Assembly (NCBI GenBank): GCA_031284645.1
Contig: JAITXS010000195.1
Location: 1 to 34,251, forward strand
Direction of reading: 5' to 3'
Source of the DNA: Spirochaetaceae bacterium
Lineage (GTDB): Bacteria; Spirochaetota; Spirochaetia; Treponematales; Breznakiellaceae
DNA: 34,251 nucleotides
Shown here: positions 14,434 to 23,619 of the stretch, piece by piece
How the letters are laid out: each line of letters begins with the position of its first letter
Numbering within the stretch: the stretch's first letter is position 1
The notes under the pieces: model-generated
Seen by the model: only the letters and a program-made list of their open reading frames with translations
What the model was told of the DNA's origin: nothing
The model's database searches: none
Program-made: the position numbers and the translations under genes

Positions 14434-14691
14434 AAACGTTGTTTCACCGTGATCTTGGGTAGTTCTTCATGGCTGCCCTCTTCATTTTGTCTGGGCTTGC
14501 GGGTTGCTGTGAATCCTCTTCATACGGGGAAGAAAAAGAAACCGGCCCTAAACGGCGTTTTACTGCCGCCTTTAACCGGACTATATGTTTACCATCCTCT
14601 TCGGAAAGTAAATGCAGGAGCTCTGAAGAAAAATATCACCGTGCCTTGTTATTTATTAAATTATATGATACTTTTACTGGAAAGAGTTGTT
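14434..14691 (+). other. Gap with an orphan lipobox-like fragment
   Basis: Nothing intact is seen. One 76-aa ORF (14469-14699) begins MAALFILSGLAGCCESSSYG, resembling the end of a lipoprotein signal peptide with LAGC, but it has no basic N-terminus, no ribosome site and a stop codon two codons upstream. The rest of it is not convincing protein. It may be the remnant of a second lipoprotein. Confidence 0.3.
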
Positions 14692-15621
14692 ATGGGTAGA
14701 ATCTTAGATAAGTATTCCGAAAATGCAGAGGCAATTATTAATAATGGTTCGTGTTATGATTTTGTAAAAACTATACCGGATAAATCGGTAAAATTGGTTA
14801 TAACTTCACCACCATATAATCTTGGAAAAAAATATGAGAAAAAATCAAGCCTTAAGGAATATTATAATAAACAAGAGGAAATAATAGACGAGTGTATTAG
14901 AACGCTCTCTGATGATGGGAGCATATGTTGGCAAATTGGAAATTTTGTAGAAAATTCAGAAATAGTCCCCTTGGATATTTTTTTATATCCCATATTTCAA
15001 AAACATAATTTAAAATTACGGAATAGAATAGTATGGGAATTTGGCCACGGCCTACATGCGTCAAAACGTTTTTCCGGGCGATATGAGACTATTTTATGGT
15101 TTACGAAAAATGGTAAGTATACATTTAATTTAGATTCTGTCAGGATACCTCAAAAGTATCCCAATAAAAAATATTTTAAGGGGCCTCGAATTGGGAAACT
15201 TTCCTGTAATCCTTTGGGGAAAAATCCAAGTGATATATGGGACATTCCCAATGTAAAAAATAACCATGTTGAAAAAACCATTCATCCGTGTCAATTTCCA
15301 ATAGAATTAGTTGAAAGGCTAATTCTTGCATTAACAAATGAAAGCGATCTCGTTTTTGATCCTTTTTTGGGAGTTGGTTCAACAATAGCAGCTGCGGTTA
15401 AAAACAAACGCAGAGGAATGGGTTGTGAAATATTTGAAGAATATTGTGACATCGCTAAAGAAAGGACAAAGTTAGCTATGAACGGAAAATTAAAAACTCG
15501 CCCTATGAATAAGCCAATTTATGATCCTAAGAATCCAAAAATTAATCTGGAATATGAAGAAAATAAAGAGCGCCAATTAATTCTTCTCAATAAAGCTCCA
15601 GCTTATGGAATAGCAAAATGA
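14692..15621 (+). CDS. Type II DNA methyltransferase of a BstYI/BglII-like system
   Basis: The ATG at 14692, after GGAAAG, gives 309 aa; the track's start at 14449 adds 81 residues of non-coding character. TSPPYNLG (catalytic SPPY at 39-42) precedes the SAM-binding DPFLGVGST (FLGVG at 225-229), the beta-class order. SPPY is most frequent in N4-cytosine enzymes, though some N6-adenine enzymes also use it. The stop overlaps the endonuclease ATG (ATGA). It should methylate the site cut by that endonuclease, by inference RGATCY. The gene is visibly AT-rich compared with clpB and the efflux genes, suggesting transfer. Confidence 0.9.
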   Translation: MGRILDKYSENAEAIINNGSCYDFVKTIPDKSVKLVITSPPYNLGKKYEKKSSLKEYYNKQEEIIDECIRTLSDDGSICWQIGNFVENSEIVPLDIFLYPIFQKHNLKLRNRIVWEFGHGLHASKRFSGRYETILWFTKNGKYTFNLDSVRIPQKYPNKKYFKGPRIGKLSCNPLGKNPSDIWDIPNVKNNHVEKTIHPCQFPIELVERLILALTNESDLVFDPFLGVGSTIAAAVKNKRRGMGCEIFEEYCDIAKERTKLAMNGKLKTRPMNKPIYDPKNPKINLEYEENKERQLILLNKAPAYGIAK

Positions 15622-16229
15622 AAATAGTTGAAAAGTATTCGCATTTAAATGGCCTTGAATTCCTATTGGTTCATAAACCGGAATTATGGGCAGAAATTGA
15701 AAAAGTAATAAAAACTGTTGACGGCGAAAAATGTAAAACTAAAATCTCCAAAGAGCAAAGAATGAAAGGGAAATTATTGTATAGTCCTGATGATATGAAT
15801 AAGGCGTTTAAAGCAGAGTTATCAAAATATCATTGGGAAGAAAGTAGAGTTAATTATTGGGTTACAAAGAATGAAAAATTGATTAGAAAAACATTAGCAA
15901 TGCCGCCTGATATTCAAAAACAAGAAATTGAATCTCAAGGAGAAATAGCCATAAGAAGTTATAATCAAACTGACTTTGTGAAAAATCGTGTTGCGATTGA
16001 AGTTCAATTCGGTAAATATTCTTTTGTTGCATATGATCTTTTTGTAAAGCACTTAGCGTTTTATATTGGTGATCATATTGATGTAGGAATTGAAATATTA
16101 CCAATGAAAACATTGCAATCACAAATGAGTTCAGGGCCATCATACTATGAAGGGGAATTATATAATGTCGTCCGGCAGGGTAGGGGCGTTCCTGCTGTTC
16201 CTCTTGTAATTATTGGAATTGAACCATAG
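15618..16229 (+). CDS. Type II restriction endonuclease, BstYI/BglII family
   Basis: This 203-aa protein matches, from memory, the length and sequence style of BstYI (R^GATCY) along its whole length: it opens with SHLNGLEF, contains NQTDFVKNRVAIEVQFGKYS and ends with GRGVPAVPLVIIGI. The catalytic D-x8-E-x-Q pattern of the BglII/BstYI fold is present as D119, E128 and Q130. I predict cleavage at RGATCY as a homodimer; the specificity needs testing. The start overlaps the methyltransferase stop by ATGA, so translation is coupled and the endonuclease is made after the protective enzyme. No controller (C) protein gene is visible. It is AT-rich like its partner. Confidence 0.88.
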   Translation: MKIVEKYSHLNGLEFLLVHKPELWAEIEKVIKTVDGEKCKTKISKEQRMKGKLLYSPDDMNKAFKAELSKYHWEESRVNYWVTKNEKLIRKTLAMPPDIQKQEIESQGEIAIRSYNQTDFVKNRVAIEVQFGKYSFVAYDLFVKHLAFYIGDHIDVGIEILPMKTLQSQMSSGPSYYEGELYNVVRQGRGVPAVPLVIIGIEP

Positions 16230-16634: not shown

Positions 16635-16663
16635 TTGACTGTTTTTAAAAGATTGATTATTAT
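16635..16663 (+). promoter_or_regulatory. Promoter of the efflux operon
   Basis: TTGACT (16635-16640), a 17-bp spacer and TATTAT (16658-16663) form a near-consensus promoter. Transcription should begin near 16670, leaving a leader of only about 14 bases and no recognisable ribosome site before the TetR ATG. Confidence 0.65.
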
Positions 16664-16683
16664 GTTAACGAACGGTCGGAAAC
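16664..16683 (+). promoter_or_regulatory. TetR-type operator candidate
   Basis: GTTAACGAACGGTCGGAAAC is an imperfect palindrome (14 of 20 positions symmetrical). Its ACGAACGGTCG core resembles operators of TetR-family regulators. It overlaps the predicted transcription start and abuts the ATG, so the regulator probably represses its own operon. Confidence 0.55.
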
Positions 16684-17898
16684 ATGACAAACGATGAAAT
16701 TATAAAAACAACTTTTCGGGTTTGGGGAGAATCCCTGTATCAATCCACAAGTTTAAGCGATGTGGCGTCGGCGCTTGGAGTTACCAAGCCCGCGCTTTAT
16801 CGTCATTTTAAAAATAAAGACCTGCTTCTCGGGGCAATGTACAGCTCGTTTTATGATCGTTTTGCCGAATTTATACGTGCCGATTATGAATTTTGTCTTA
16901 AATGCAATGATGAAATCGAAAAAGAACTGCGGATTGCGCGGGTTATCGCAGAATATTTGGCGCGTAACAGGGAGGATTTCCTTTTCGGTGTGATACTGGT
17001 TCACGGCAATCAGGAAACCGGGTTTAATTTCTTAAAACAGTTGCAAAAACGGGGAGTGGATATGCTTAAAGTGTTTCCCCAAAGTTCTGAATCAGCTATT
17101 CATCCCCCGGATTTTCAGCTTGTTTTGACAACGGTCTACTTTATGCTTGCTGCTTTTCATAAAAATAGAGCGAAAAACAACGTAACGTCTCTTGGGGATG
17201 AGATTCTTTCTGTCTTTGTCGATCAGGTTGAAGAACGGATTTGCACAGGACTTGCCCTTCCGGCGGAAAAAATTAACGCCCTTGACTATGAGTCCCTTGA
17301 AAAAGCAGTCGTTTTTTCGCCGTGTACTTGTACGGGTAATGAAACCAATAAAATCATAGAAGCGGTTATCGGCGCACTTGCCGAGGCGGGCCCCTGGAAA
17401 TTTTCAATGGAGATGGTGGCAAAACGTTCGGGGCTTTCAAAAAGCAGTCTCTACTCTCATTTTGAAAGTAAAGAGGAAATGTTAAAGGAAGCGCTCTATG
17501 GCGAAATCGGGAGGGTCACTTCTTACGCGGAACATTGTTCTCTTTTGTCAAAACAGCCTGAAGAACAGCTCTACCTGACGCTTATTGGTATTGTCGCGTA
17601 TCTTCGAAAAAAAAGTGAAGTCCTGTTAATCTTTGACCGTTTTCGAACACGCCGTCCGGTGTTCAAAACGGATAAATGCGGGAAGGGAAAGTTTACTGCG
17701 CAAATCCACCGGACTTTTTCGCAGATTAAAAACGCGGACGGAACTTTGATGATAAGCGAGCGCAATACTGAGTGGATTTTATTTTTAATTGTAAATCTCT
17801 TGCAGCGCCGTCAAGCGGGGATGAGTTACGCGGATATTCCGAATGAAAGTTTCAGAATGCTTTTCCGGTTTATAGCGCGCGGACTCAAGAATATGTAA
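16684..17898 (+). CDS. Tandem TetR-family regulator with two DNA-binding domains
   Basis: The 404-aa protein contains two TetR N-domains. The first HTH spans about 22-45 (TSLSDVASALGVTKPALYRH) and the second about 239-262 (FSMEMVAKRSGLSKSSLYSH). Each is followed by a roughly 150-residue helical section that could be a ligand and dimer domain. Ordinary TetR proteins are about 200 aa, so this is a head-to-tail fusion, perhaps working as a single-chain pseudo-dimer or able to read two ligands. A CTCTG-type cysteine pair lies in the linker (PCTCTG). It opens the efflux operon, 32 bases before the TolC gene, and very likely represses it until a pump substrate binds. Confidence 0.88.
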   Translation: MTNDEIIKTTFRVWGESLYQSTSLSDVASALGVTKPALYRHFKNKDLLLGAMYSSFYDRFAEFIRADYEFCLKCNDEIEKELRIARVIAEYLARNREDFLFGVILVHGNQETGFNFLKQLQKRGVDMLKVFPQSSESAIHPPDFQLVLTTVYFMLAAFHKNRAKNNVTSLGDEILSVFVDQVEERICTGLALPAEKINALDYESLEKAVVFSPCTCTGNETNKIIEAVIGALAEAGPWKFSMEMVAKRSGLSKSSLYSHFESKEEMLKEALYGEIGRVTSYAEHCSLLSKQPEEQLYLTLIGIVAYLRKKSEVLLIFDRFRTRRPVFKTDKCGKGKFTAQIHRTFSQIKNADGTLMISERNTEWILFLIVNLLQRRQAGMSYADIPNESFRMLFRFIARGLKNM

Positions 17899-17930: not shown

Positions 17931-19340
17931 ATGAAAAAAAATCTTTTTTTTAGCGTATTGTTTTTTGCCGCAGCTTCCCTTTTCGCACAAAATGACGAAC
18001 AGGCCGACCTTGCGCAAGCGGCAGAGACCGGAGGAGACAGCCCTAAAACCGCAGTGCCCGTAAAAACGCTTACTATTGACGAAGCGGTTTCACTGGCTAT
18101 CGTACAGAATCTGAATCTTGAAGCCGTCGGAATCGGAACTGAAACAAAAAAACGGGCTGCCGACTTTGCGTGGAATAATTTTTTGCCGACCGTAGGGTTT
18201 TCAGGGGGCTTGAGCGCGGCAAACACGGCACCTAAAGCGCTTGCCTTAACTCCTTCGGGGCCGACAATGGCGGAAGGCTCCCGTTGGACAATGAACGGAG
18301 CCCTTCAGATTCAATGGCAGGGCCTAAATATCGCGATGATCGAAGGCATCAAGAAAATTCGTGAGGATTATACGGTCGGTGCCCTGAGTTTTCAAAAAGC
18401 TAAAATTCAGCTTGAAAGGGAAATCAGGAAACTCTATTTGCAAATTTTGCTGCTTGAAGAGAATCTGAAAGTCCAGGAACAGAACCTTCAGCTAGCCGAG
18501 CAAAACTTTAAGATGTCAGATTCCCGTTACCGGGCCGGTCTTTCCAGCGAATTGACGCTCCTTCAGGCGCGGGTGGACCGTGATCGTCTTATTCCCGCTG
18601 TTAATCAGGTTAACGACAATATAAAAATTGCCCGGGCGAACCTTGCCGTACAGCTTGGCCTTCCGTATGACACGGAGTTTAAATTGATGTCCGTTGACTT
18701 GGGTAATTTTGATGTTTCGCTTGACGTTCAGGAATTGATTGCAAAAGCCGCCGGAAACAAGCCTGATATTATGGAATTGCAGGCAAATATTACGGCAACA
18801 AAAAGCGCCCGCACGGCACTTGCCTTGCAAACATGGACGCCGAACCTGAATATCGGCTGGAATGTGACACCGACAAACAGCGATCCGTTTGGCTCTACCA
18901 GCACGTGGACGGACAGGGGAAGCTTGAGCCTTTCGCTTAACTGGGCGCTTAACGGCTTGCTCCCGTTTACTAAAGAAGGAAACGCGATAAAAAACATGGA
19001 TGATACGCTCAAAACCCTTGATATCAACCTTGCCCAGATGATTCGCGGTGCGGAAGTTGAGGTCTACAACACGGTGTTTACCATCAATCAGGCGCGATCT
19101 TCGGCAGAGACTCAACAGAAAACCGTGGATTTGGCGCAGAGGACATACGAATTGACATCTCAGGCATTTCAGGCGGGCTTAACGGAATTACTACAGCTGA
19201 GCAATGCACAAAATCAGTTAAGTCAGGCTCAGGTGGGTGTTTTGCAGCAGCGCTTTAACTTTTTAATAGGAATTATTGACTTGGAATACGCTATAGGGGC
19301 ACCGTTTGGAACTCTGATGAAAAAACAATCGGCGAATTAA
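17931..19340 (+). CDS. TolC-like outer membrane efflux protein
   Basis: The protein starts with a clear signal peptide (KKNLFFSVLFFAAASLFA). The 469 aa contain the duplicated OEP helix-strand pattern: LTIDEAVSLAIVQNLNLEA, then a long helical stretch with LLEENLKVQEQNLQLAEQNFKM, and a matching second half ending QAGLTELLQLSNAQNQLSQAQ. It forms the trimeric channel that carries pump substrates across the outer membrane. It lies between its probable repressor and the adaptor, 26 bases before the latter. The adjacent RND pump makes it a dedicated exit duct. Confidence 0.92.
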   Translation: MKKNLFFSVLFFAAASLFAQNDEQADLAQAAETGGDSPKTAVPVKTLTIDEAVSLAIVQNLNLEAVGIGTETKKRAADFAWNNFLPTVGFSGGLSAANTAPKALALTPSGPTMAEGSRWTMNGALQIQWQGLNIAMIEGIKKIREDYTVGALSFQKAKIQLEREIRKLYLQILLLEENLKVQEQNLQLAEQNFKMSDSRYRAGLSSELTLLQARVDRDRLIPAVNQVNDNIKIARANLAVQLGLPYDTEFKLMSVDLGNFDVSLDVQELIAKAAGNKPDIMELQANITATKSARTALALQTWTPNLNIGWNVTPTNSDPFGSTSTWTDRGSLSLSLNWALNGLLPFTKEGNAIKNMDDTLKTLDINLAQMIRGAEVEVYNTVFTINQARSSAETQQKTVDLAQRTYELTSQAFQAGLTELLQLSNAQNQLSQAQVGVLQQRFNFLIGIIDLEYAIGAPFGTLMKKQSAN

Positions 19341-19366: not shown

Positions 19367-20338
19367 ATGAAAAGATTAAAAAAAACATTATTGACTGTGG
19401 TCACTGTATTTACGTTTGTGCTTGCCGGATGCTCCGGACAGAACAGTAAAGCAGGAGGAACAGGAGGCAAAGGCGCTGCGGGGGATATTCCGGTCTTTGC
19501 GGTTAATACCACGCTTGCCATGCAAGGGTCTATCAGTGATTATATTGAATTGGCAGGAGATTTAATCGCAAGCTCAACAGTAGATACTTTTTCGGATGCA
19601 GCGGGGAAAATTACCCGACTTTTTGTTTCCGTGGGAAGCCGGATTTCAAAAGGAGATCCTATCGCCACGGTTGACCCGTCCAAACCCGGTATGAGTTATG
19701 TCCTCCATACTGCGCGTTCCCCGATATCAGGTACGGTTGTCGGATTACCTGCGGAAGTCGGCATGACGATTCAGTCGTCAACTCCGCTTGCCAAGATAGC
19801 AGGCGGCGGCGGGCTGGAAGTTCAGCTCTATATTCCGGAGCGTTTTATTTCAAAAATCAGACGCGGGCTTCCCTGCCAAATCAGCCTTGACGCCTATCCG
19901 GGAGAGCTTTTCCGCGGAAGCGTCAGCGAGGTAAGTCCCACTGTGGATATCGCCTCGCGTACTGAAATGATCAAGGTGAATGTCGATAATTCGAGTTCCC
20001 GTTTAAAGGTCGGAATGTTTGCCAAAGTAAAGATTATCACGGAAAGCAAGGCGGATATAGTCAAAATACCTGCCGCATCGGTTATTCAGCGGGGAGGGGA
20101 AAATATTGTGTTCGTTATTACACCTGACCCTACGGATTCAAATTACCATATTGCCCGACAAATTAACGTTACACCGGGTATCCTGATTGATAATGTTGTT
20201 GAAATACAGTCGGGTCTTGAGGCCGGGGACGAAGTTGTGAGTAAGGGAATGAGCCTTTTAAACGAAGGCGTACGTGTTAATGTTATTCAGAAGGAAGGCG
20301 GCGCCAGTTCTTCAGCCGGTGAGGGAGAACGGAAATGA
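19367..20338 (+). CDS. RND efflux periplasmic adaptor (membrane fusion lipoprotein)
   Basis: A signal peptide with lipobox LAGC (Cys22) anchors this 323-aa adaptor. It shows the beta-barrel and lipoyl parts of HlyD/AcrA proteins: AGKITRLFVSVGSRISKGDP for the first lipoyl half, RSPISGTVVGLPAEVGMTI for the second, and ILIDNVVEIQSGLEAGDEVV for the membrane-proximal domain. The helical hairpin between the lipoyl halves is very short, since the two motifs are about 30 residues apart, as in some metal and spirochaete adaptors. AGAGAGG precedes the ATG. The stop overlaps the RND start by ATGA. Confidence 0.92.
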   Translation: MKRLKKTLLTVVTVFTFVLAGCSGQNSKAGGTGGKGAAGDIPVFAVNTTLAMQGSISDYIELAGDLIASSTVDTFSDAAGKITRLFVSVGSRISKGDPIATVDPSKPGMSYVLHTARSPISGTVVGLPAEVGMTIQSSTPLAKIAGGGGLEVQLYIPERFISKIRRGLPCQISLDAYPGELFRGSVSEVSPTVDIASRTEMIKVNVDNSSSRLKVGMFAKVKIITESKADIVKIPAASVIQRGGENIVFVITPDPTDSNYHIARQINVTPGILIDNVVEIQSGLEAGDEVVSKGMSLLNEGVRVNVIQKEGGASSSAGEGERK

Positions 20339-23300
20339 GCATAGCTAAATCAGTTATTTCAAGGCCGGTAACTTTTTTTATCATTTTTGTGCTTTTTGTT
20401 GGTTTGGGTATATTCGCGCTTTTCCACCTGCCCATTGATCTTCTTCCCGAAATAAACCCTCCGTATATTATGGTTATGACCACCTATGCCGGCGCAGGCC
20501 CCGAAGAAGTCGAGCGTTCGGTAACGCGGCCCCTGGAACAGGCGCTCTCCAGTGTTTCAAGTTTGGAAAAAATCACCTCTTCCTCGTCAAAAGGTTCAAG
20601 CCAGATTGTACTGCAATTTACTTTTGGCACGAATCTTATAGACTCAACGAATATGGTTCGGGACGCTATAGAACGGATAAAACGCCTCTTGCCCGATACA
20701 TCGGACGCTCCCCTCATTATCAGAATTGACCCGTCGATGATGCCGGTCGCCAGCTATATGGTTTCTTCGGAGATACGAAGTCCCGAAGACCTCTATCAAA
20801 TCGCGACCGATACGATATCAACCCGTATGGAACAGAGCCCTGGCGTGGCCTCGGCTACGGTGAACGGCGGACGAAAAAAAATCATCCGCGTTGATTTTCC
20901 TGAATCCCGCCTTGAGGCGTATAATCTTACCATAACACAGATACAACAGATGATTGCCGCTCAAAACACCCAGATCGGCGCGGGTACTGTTACCGAAAAT
21001 AATATTTCTTATATTTTAACAACTATGGGAGAGTATACATCCCTTGAGGATATCAGAAAGACGGTTATCTCTTATGTCCCCAGCGGTAAAGGCGATTCTA
21101 TCGGGATTTTTCTTGGCGACATCGCCAATGTTTACGAAGGATATCAAGACGCGACAAGCGCGATCTTTGTAAACGGACAGCCGGCTATCGGAATTTCAAT
21201 TCAGAAACAGAGCGGTACAAACTCGGTTAGTGTTGTTGACGATCTTCGTGCACGTATCCCCGGAATTCAGAAAGCACTCCCCGGTGATATAAAAATAAGC
21301 GAGACCTATAGTACAACCGACATGATAAAAAGAACCATTGGGGCGGTTATCTCAAGCGTTATTTCGGGCGTTATCCTTGCCGTTCTTGTGCTTTTTGTTT
21401 TCTTCCGCCAGATCAAACCAACCCTTGTTATCGCGATTAGTATGCCGGTTTCAATGATAGTTACAATTATGCTGATGTACTTTGCCGGTCTTACCTTAAA
21501 CCTGATGACACTTGCCGGTCTCTACCTTGGCTTGGGTATGCTCGTTGATAACTCTATCGTTGTTTTGGAGAATATCTATCATTATCGGGAAAAGGGCGCG
21601 AAACTCCGTCCGGCGGCAATTTTGGGAACAACGGAAATGATCGTGGCAATCAGCGCATCTACGCTGACGACTATCGTTATTTTTGCCCCGCTGATTATGT
21701 TTCAGAGTATGCTGGAAGTACAGGGCGAAATGTTTGCGGGCCTTGCGTTCACTATTGTTATTTCGCTTGCCATTTCTCTGTTAACCGCTATCTTTCTTGT
21801 ACCTATCCTCTGCTCACACTTTTTCCCGCTGGTAACAAGAAAACAAAAACCGCTTACCGGCCCCTTGTCGGGCATAGATCGGGTCATCGCGCGCTTTCTT
21901 ATCAACCTTGAGAATAATTACCGAAAAATCGTTGATAAAATACTACGGCATAAACTTAGGACTATCATCATTATCTTTATCCTTTTTGCCGGAGCCATCG
22001 CGCTGGTACCTGTTACCGGCTATGTCTTTATGCCGCAGCAGGAACAAGATTCGGTTAACGTTCGGGTAACCCTGCCCCTGGGTACCCCGATTGAGGAGAC
22101 AAGCGATTGGCTTGCACGACTTGAGGAGATTGCCAAGAGAGAAGTTATTTATAACGGGGAAATCGCCTATAAAAGAATCATGATTAATGTCGGCGGCGGC
22201 AGGTTGGGAAGCGCCGGTTCCTCGAATTCGGGAACCTTGCAAGTTATCCTGCCGGATTACAAGGATAGAAAGCTCCACGAGGATGATGTAAAAACGATAC
22301 TGCGGCGCCATTTTAACGACTTTCCGGGCGCAATCTTCCAGTTCCAGTCCGGCTGGGGCGGCGGCGGCATGGGCGGTAATCCCGTGGATATTATGATAAA
22401 AACAGACGATTTAAAGCATGGTAAAGAAATTGCCGATCAGATCGTTGCGCTGCTCAAAGAACGGATACCGGAAGCCACCGAGCCGCAGATCGATATGCAG
22501 GACGGTCTGCCTCAGCTTGAAATTGAGCTTGACAGGCAAAGAATGTACGCGCTTGGCCTGAACGCCTACAATGTGGGTAACGAGATAAAAGCGGCGGTAG
22601 ACGGGCTTGTTGCCTCAAAATATTCCGAGGCAGGAACCGATTACGACATAGTTCTGCGTTATGCAGAAAATGACCGGAATTCCCGGCCCGCCCTTGATCA
22701 TGTCTTTGTTAAAAATTCAGCGGGGAAACGTATTCCTGTTTCCAATTTCGCCGGATTTAAGGAAGGCATCGGCCCGGTTACGATTAAGCGTGAAGGGCAG
22801 AGCCGCGTCATCCATATTACGGCGGGCGTCCTGTCCGGCACATCGCTTAATGTTATCGAGGACAAGGTACGCAGTCTTATTGCTGCGGAGATCCCCGCCG
22901 AAGACGACCTGATTATTGAATTTGGCGGAGACAGCGCCGAAATGCAGAAGACCGTCAAGGCGTTTATGCTCATTCTTCTGGTTGCCGTTTTTCTTGTATT
23001 CGGCGTTATGGCAGCTCAGTTTGAGTCGTTTAAAGACCCCTTTATCATTCTTTTTACGATACCGCTTTCAATTATCGGTGTTGTTGCAATTTATCTGATA
23101 ACCGGTGACAAGTTTAATGTGCTTACCGCCGTGGGTATTCTTGTTTTAATCGGTGTTATCGTAAATAACGGCATCGTTCTTGTGGACTACACGAATTTAC
23201 TTCGTAAGCGCGGCTACAGTCTTCACGATGCCTGTGTTGAGGCTGCCGGAAACCGCCTGCGCCCGATTTTAATGTCAACGCTTACCACGGTACTGGGGCT

Positions 23301-23619
23301 TGCGCCGCTTGCCTTTCTTCCGGGCGAAGGAACCGAACTTGTCGCGCCGATTGGAAAAACAGTTTTCGGCGGCTTGACATTCGGTACACTGATGACCCTC
23401 TTTTTAATGCCGACCGTGTACGCGATTCTGAACAAGCATGACGACGCCCGAAAAATGAAACGCGAAGCCCGGCGGGAAGGCATAGCTCTTGGTCTTAAAG
23501 GCAAGGCTCTGCGAGAGCAGACTAAAGAAACTGAGCAACATATACTGGAAGAAGAAGCGCGCGAAGAGGAAGAATGGAAAGCAGGTGATGCTCACACAAA
23601 AACGGGAGACAAGCAATGA
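20335..23619 (+). CDS. RND-family efflux pump (AcrB-type inner membrane transporter)
   Basis: The 1,094-aa protein has 12 expected membrane helices and two large periplasmic loops. It begins with the family signature SVISRPVTFFIIFVLFVGLG and includes the TM4 segment GLGMLVDNSIVVLENIY, where D405-N406 match the AcrB D407-D408 pair. TM10 reads VIVNNGIVLVDYTN, with Asn where AcrB has Lys940. Pumps of the HAE1 type export hydrophobic compounds using protons. The C-terminus carries a long charged cytoplasmic tail (about 1040-1094, rich in Glu, Lys and Arg) not typical of AcrB. The gene is coupled by ATGA on both sides. Confidence 0.94.
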   Translation: MSIAKSVISRPVTFFIIFVLFVGLGIFALFHLPIDLLPEINPPYIMVMTTYAGAGPEEVERSVTRPLEQALSSVSSLEKITSSSSKGSSQIVLQFTFGTNLIDSTNMVRDAIERIKRLLPDTSDAPLIIRIDPSMMPVASYMVSSEIRSPEDLYQIATDTISTRMEQSPGVASATVNGGRKKIIRVDFPESRLEAYNLTITQIQQMIAAQNTQIGAGTVTENNISYILTTMGEYTSLEDIRKTVISYVPSGKGDSIGIFLGDIANVYEGYQDATSAIFVNGQPAIGISIQKQSGTNSVSVVDDLRARIPGIQKALPGDIKISETYSTTDMIKRTIGAVISSVISGVILAVLVLFVFFRQIKPTLVIAISMPVSMIVTIMLMYFAGLTLNLMTLAGLYLGLGMLVDNSIVVLENIYHYREKGAKLRPAAILGTTEMIVAISASTLTTIVIFAPLIMFQSMLEVQGEMFAGLAFTIVISLAISLLTAIFLVPILCSHFFPLVTRKQKPLTGPLSGIDRVIARFLINLENNYRKIVDKILRHKLRTIIIIFILFAGAIALVPVTGYVFMPQQEQDSVNVRVTLPLGTPIEETSDWLARLEEIAKREVIYNGEIAYKRIMINVGGGRLGSAGSSNSGTLQVILPDYKDRKLHEDDVKTILRRHFNDFPGAIFQFQSGWGGGGMGGNPVDIMIKTDDLKHGKEIADQIVALLKERIPEATEPQIDMQDGLPQLEIELDRQRMYALGLNAYNVGNEIKAAVDGLVASKYSEAGTDYDIVLRYAENDRNSRPALDHVFVKNSAGKRIPVSNFAGFKEGIGPVTIKREGQSRVIHITAGVLSGTSLNVIEDKVRSLIAAEIPAEDDLIIEFGGDSAEMQKTVKAFMLILLVAVFLVFGVMAAQFESFKDPFIILFTIPLSIIGVVAIYLITGDKFNVLTAVGILVLIGVIVNNGIVLVDYTNLLRKRGYSLHDACVEAAGNRLRPILMSTLTTVLGLAPLAFLPGEGTELVAPIGKTVFGGLTFGTLMTLFLMPTVYAILNKHDDARKMKREARREGIALGLKGKALREQTKETEQHILEEEAREEEEWKAGDAHTKTGDKQ

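Follow-up and report, generated by a model that had tools for sequence, protein, structure and literature searches.

A predicted single-chain double-TetR regulator and its quasi-palindromic operator at an RND efflux operon of Spirochaetota

Introduction

Regulators of the TetR family are expected to carry one DNA-binding domain per chain and to act as homodimers. In a stretch of 34,251 nucleotides from a Spirochaetaceae bacterium (hereafter called the window), a single open reading frame instead encodes two TetR units and stands at the head of a set of efflux pump genes. The question raised by this locus is whether one such chain can do the work of a TetR homodimer and, if so, how two unlike DNA-binding domains share one operator.

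Regulators with two TetR units in one chain are an established class, but not a common one. Mce3R of Mycobacterium tuberculosis, a proven single-chain double-TetR repressor in which units M1 and M2 pack together and share one pocket (PMC11667970), is the only solved example that we found. A literature search on double-TetR proteins and on the control of pumps in spirochaetes gave two relevant papers, one on Mce3R and one on a Borrelia RND system. The operator of Mce3R is not palindromic, so how the two halves share the reading is hard to learn from that system. The regulator examined here represents a second, widespread double-TetR lineage. Its quasi-palindromic operator is strongly conserved over more than 200 species-level genomes, and the natural symmetric, asymmetric and mirror-image forms of this site make the gain from fusing two repressor subunits directly testable. 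Moreover, spirochaetes, on whose efflux control we found little literature, gain a clear candidate for a pump repressor together with an operator predicted at base resolution.

A double-TetR gene at the head of an RND operon

The features of the locus are listed in Table 1. The product of the regulator gene matches Pfam TetR_N twice (whole-protein E 1.9e-24, 85.6 bits against a cut-off of 24), with the best stretch at residues 6-52, and a genome search located two separate copies of the domain within one open frame, one at 16699-16839 (48.6 bits) and the other at 17353-17493 (44.5 bits). AlphaFold gives each half of the modelled chain a full TetR-type helix set, so that the two complete DNA-binding domains proposed in the initial annotation are borne out by both the domain search and the model. 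The protein has the TetR_N domain, in two copies above the cut-off, and the all-helical TetR fold, and it departs from the one-domain homodimer of the family in having two TetR units per chain. At 404 aa, with homologues mostly of about 400-440 aa, it has the size of known two-unit proteins (about 400 aa). Of the interval 16664-17898, which had been annotated as a whole, the gene accounts for 16684-17898; position 16664 is out of frame, and the noncoding nucleotides 16664-16683 form the predicted operator.

Table 1. Features of the regulator locus in the window (positions count from the first nucleotide of the window)
Feature	Position	Strand	Basis or remark
Predicted promoter, sigma-70-like, TTGACT-17 bp-TATTAT, ending at 16663	16635..16663	+	Directly upstream of the operator
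Predicted operator GTTAACGAACGGTCGGAAAC, 20-bp quasi-palindrome abutting the ATG	16664..16683	+	Uniqueness in the genome, conservation
Symmetrised forms of the predicted operator: both halves GTTAACGAAC, or both halves GTTACCGACC			
Double-TetR regulator, 404 aa	16684..17898	+	TetR_N at residues 6-52 and about 224-270; homologues; AlphaFold
N-terminal TetR half, residues 1-200	16684..17283	+	Recognition helix [ST]KxALYRHF
C-terminal TetR half, residues 213-404	17320..17895	+	Recognition helix SKSxLYxHF
TolC-type outer-membrane channel gene (OEP), operon gene 2	17931..19340	+	Pfam OEP, E 1.6e-39
RND periplasmic adaptor gene, HlyD-type (HlyD_D23), operon gene 3	19367..20338	+	Pfam; NCBIfam RND_mfp over cut-off
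RND efflux permease gene (ACR_tran), operon gene 4	20335..23619	+	Pfam, E 1.9e-231

The recognition helices of the N and C halves are unlike each other, and each is nearly fixed over 101 loci of the window's family, in agreement with the earlier suggestion that the halves have diverged. The invariant residues (A1) are K35, A37, Y39, F42 and K45 in the N-terminal helix-turn-helix (HTH) and K253, S254, Y257, H259 and F260 in the C-terminal one, and few parts of the protein are as conserved as these two helices. This conservation, found in both halves of the operator as well, makes it very improbable that specific DNA contacts come from one HTH only and that the second TetR half persists as a structural or sensory remnant, even though domain fusions often leave one partner degenerate.

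The genes are arranged in the order regulator, channel, adaptor and permease on the same strand, with the channel gene ahead of those of the adaptor and permease, and the start of the permease gene (20335) overlaps the end of the adaptor gene (20338). Pfam matches to OEP, an HlyD-type adaptor and ACR_tran directly downstream confirm that the regulator heads an RND operon, as initially annotated. Just upstream, at 14449-16229, an N6_N4_Mtase DNA methyltransferase gene is followed by an overlapping Endonuc-BglII gene (E 1.2e-33), apparently a BglII-like restriction-modification pair.

Distribution in Spirochaetota and origin of the two halves

With an E-value limit of 1e-3, homologues were found in 161 of 200 genomes of the window's family, and most of these span the full length and carry both domains; the named records are Treponema sp., Spirochaetaceae and Spirochaetia. 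In a second genome set, whose genus label (Treponema-type) is inferred, 99 of 200 genomes match at 1e-40, and in Spirochaetota as a whole a threshold of 1e-20 yields 60 of 393 genomes, among them members of other families, orders and classes. Further proteins of about 400 aa with two TetR_N domains, which the initial annotation had proposed to look for in spirochaetes, are therefore widespread in several families and classes. Searches for relatives on phages, plasmids or viral contigs returned none.

The linkage to the pump is equally regular. Of the 101 family loci, 93 have a TolC gene downstream of the regulator in the same orientation, and of the remaining eight, six are cut off by the end of the contig. 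Among 40 loci from other parts of the phylum, 38 retain TolC and the adaptor, nearly always together with the permease, and two are truncated by a contig end. Judged from sequence, the double-TetR gene, the pump and the operator recur across Spirochaetota. Two family members (L099:1528-2781 and L125:379-1626) are truly without pump genes; the former retains the operator, and the latter is without it as well. In one genome (G559, L248:1643-2852), the double-TetR gene upstream of the pump genes is frameshifted into overlapping ORFs of 175 and 251 aa, which reflects either a sequencing error or a natural split.

The two halves have different nearest relatives. The N-half profile is nearest to PfmR, Mce3R M1, MtrR and TtgR, and the C-half profile is nearest, among solved proteins, to FadR-type regulators. 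Aligned with each other, the two profiles match only over the DNA-binding region and the first helices, with 20% identity. The halves thus fall in different TetR subgroups, as those of Mce3R do, and because their nearest relatives differ, the protein looks like a fusion of two different TetR proteins. A recent tandem duplication was also considered as the source of the halves and was not favoured, for the same reason.

A conserved operator over the predicted transcription start

The predicted operator in the window, whose halves differ at three of ten half-site positions, is the only site with up to three mismatches in the 1.99-Mb genome. An inverted-repeat search of the leader did not report it, presumably because of its mismatches. 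The description of this sole candidate as an imperfect, asymmetric palindrome holds, and the site is no chance match: a 20-bp site matching GTTAMCGANNNNTCGKTAAC is found upstream in 100 of 101 family loci. With up to three mismatches, the operator is also upstream in all 38 intact loci elsewhere in Spirochaetota. Among the Treponema-type genes, 98 of 99 have a site with at most two mismatches to 16 fixed arm bases, compared with at least four mismatches in 495 block-shuffled controls. In 11 other genomes searched, the operator was always present at the gene, and the few further sites all had one mismatch, so the regulator is probably dedicated to its own pump operon. Like the two domains and the operon, the operator and its conservation were read from sequence, and the promoter is a prediction.

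In 68 of 99 family loci, the operator begins 3-4 nt past a -10 element, with a spacer mostly of 17 bp, so a bound protein would cover the transcription start. The operator of the window likewise overlaps the predicted transcription start. It lies there between the -10 element and the ATG, giving a predicted transcript leader of about 14 nt with no evident ribosome-binding site; in other species of the family, the gap between operator and start codon ranges from 0 to 147 nt.

The best explanation of the whole, in which we have good confidence, is an autoregulating single-chain double-TetR repressor of its own efflux operon. One polypeptide would pack two different TetR units together, so that a single chain does the job of a TetR homodimer. 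We infer that one chain occupies each site, its N-terminal and C-terminal HTHs reading opposite halves of the 20-bp operator. The bound chain would cover the transcription start and block the regulator and pump genes together. By analogy with the TetR family, repression would be relieved (induction) when a small-molecule ligand, probably a substrate of the pump, enters a pocket between the halves and spreads the HTHs, releasing the DNA.

Predicted fold and comparison with known regulators

AlphaFold modelled the window protein with a mean pLDDT of 91.7 and a pTM of 0.90, and a member from another order, about a quarter identical, with a mean pLDDT of 89.7 and a pTM of 0.88. Structure prediction, which had been proposed as a check, thus gave a confident chain with the TetR helix set in each half. 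Foldseek matched the fold to TetR chains at probability 1.00. Both models find their best PDB match in Mce3R (9b7y), with alignments of 428 and 442 columns that span the full chain, whereas other, single TetR chains in the PDB align with one half only. TM scores to Mce3R are 0.50/0.52 and 0.56/0.59, with a Foldseek rmsd of 7.6-9.2 A. The two confident models and their best full-length match agree with the single-chain dimer suggested initially, at TM scores of only 0.50-0.59, and the modelled halves would pack as a pseudodimer through an intrachain four-helix bundle.

Both HTHs of one Mce3R chain bind one operator site, M1 and M2 come from different TetR subgroups and a fusion origin has been described, and 204 double-TetR proteins are predicted in actinomycetes (PMC11667970, the last as cited there). 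The spirochaete regulator is like Mce3R in its length of about 400 aa, in its two TetR units per chain, in the different subgroups of its halves, and in being autoregulated (here a prediction) and linked to an operon under its control. The binding sites differ: those of Mce3R are 25 bp long, non-palindromic and 53 bp apart, whereas the spirochaete site is quasi-palindromic, 20 bp long and found mostly alone or as close tandem copies. So do the targets, since Mce3R controls lipid and mce genes and the spirochaete regulator precedes an RND pump. Sequence similarity to Mce3R is confined to the N-terminal HTH region of the spirochaete protein, and Mce3R is absent from the best 60 matches of the C-half profile. 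The quasi-palindromic operator of 20 bp, the RND pump as predicted target and the occurrence in another phylum set the spirochaete family apart from Mce3R.

AcrR, MtrR and TtgR each have one domain and work as homodimers, their genes mostly point away from those of the pump, and toxic pump substrates are expected to act as their inducers. They too adjoin an RND pump, and the spirochaete N half is among their sequence relatives, but the spirochaete regulator is a two-domain chain that heads the operon. No NCBIfam model claims the spirochaete double-TetR family; the MtrR and AcrR models score 51.5 bits (cut-off 280) and 49.2 bits (cut-off 271), both far below. For the C half, FadR-type regulators such as Bacillus FadR and Mycobacterium FasR are the nearest solved relatives by sequence and among the nearest by fold. 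These two are homodimeric and respond to acyl-CoA, and FadR-type TetR regulators are not known to be linked to RND pumps.

Asymmetry of the operator and its reading

With two unlike reading heads, symmetry of the operator would be dispensable, and under the proposed mechanism the site would be kept slightly asymmetric and able to face either way. In the window's family, the two halves differ at half-site position 5, A against C, in 71 of 100 operators (18 CC, 11 AA), and this asymmetry occurs in both orientations. On the protein tree, a model in which operators flip end for end fits better than independent half-sites over all loci (LR 16.2, p=6e-5), as it does within the window's family alone (p=2e-4); many loci in the asymmetry tests are related to one another. 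A Pagel-type dependence test of position 5 without flips, within the window's family, was not significant (p=0.12). The phylum-wide dependence at this position (p=0.019) was discarded as evidence of asymmetry, its signal being driven toward symmetric CC.

Treponema-type operators have symmetric arms, and their central dinucleotide is TG in 44, CA in 39, TA in nine and CG in five cases (n=98). The dyad step is thus TG or CA in 83 of 98, divided 44:39 by orientation. A model with independent half-sites is rejected (LR 33.9, p=4e-8); one with a term for flips performs just as well (p=8e-10). When these operators are oriented by their C half, the strict side has A at position 8 in 82 of 83 and A at position 9 in 78 of 83, and the loose side has A in 62 and T in 21 at position 8, and T in 34, C in 28 and A in 21 at position 9.

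The asymmetry might be unrelated to the doubling and arise from DNA flexibility at a TG/CA dyad, from overlap with the promoter or from chance inheritance, the halves being read alike. This account, which concerns the operator only and is compatible with the single-chain fold, appears possible but doubtful. It agrees with the dyad step of the Treponema-type sites, which is almost always pyrimidine-purine, with the independence test that was not significant within the window's family, and with the asymmetric centres that operators of ordinary TetR homodimers (AcrR) can have. It accords poorly with position 5, which lies in the outer arm, away from the dyad, with an asymmetry that survives reversal relative to the promoter, and with halves that differ in tolerance at positions 8 and 9. 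An asymmetry that persists and flips fits an asymmetric reader. We give even chances to the fuller reading, in which the proteins would be pseudodimers throughout the phylum, the asymmetry would be kept because different HTHs read the half-sites, and the complex could be reversed on the promoter without loss of control. If true, the natural flips would show that repression by occlusion works whichever way the reader faces.

Because symmetric arms prevail among the operators, a symmetric reader is conceivable. Two chains might pair N to N and C to C, giving two symmetric TetR dimers with two pockets, possibly two inducers, and an ordinary palindrome as operator. The nearly palindromic arms suit such an assembly, as do the perfect palindromes of some species (for example GTTACCGACCGGTCGGTAAC), and a larger assembly could be served by the tandem sites that many Treponema-type loci have at spacings of 20-27 bp. 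We nevertheless consider this pairing unlikely: it would predict two kinds of palindrome, whereas two fixed, unlike helices usually go with one operator type; the operator asymmetry is retained and flips as a unit; and an M1-M2 arrangement is seen in the nearest solved relative (PMC11667970). The initial annotation, too, allowed for two inducers; the Mce3R precedent has a single pocket shared by its halves (PMC11667970). At a spacing of 20 bp, Treponema-type tandem operators are in opposite orientation in 12 of the 14 pairs for which both orientations could be assigned; at 25 bp, they mostly share one orientation. Upstream of the genes at L258 and L259, two asymmetric 20-bp sites, 20 bp apart and opposed, form a perfect 40-bp palindrome.

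The asymmetric operator that the initial annotation associated with two diverging halves is upheld in part. The flip and dependence tests favour it in two lineages; the arms are nearly palindromic, and a scan for covariation of half-site bases with HTH residues, in which 306 residue tests were set against a phylogenetic null, gave a best p of 0.002, not significant after correction. Under the single-chain reading, each half-site would belong to one HTH, and one clade of the window's family hints at such an assignment through a single event. Operators starting with CTTAACGAATGG, unique to this clade, accompany R40H or H41Y in the N-terminal HTH, and the C-terminal HTH keeps the consensus. Five loci of one clade (L091, L096, L105, L112 and L124) combine the altered operator half CTTAACGAAT with a change in the recognition helix of the N half, either R40H or H41Y.
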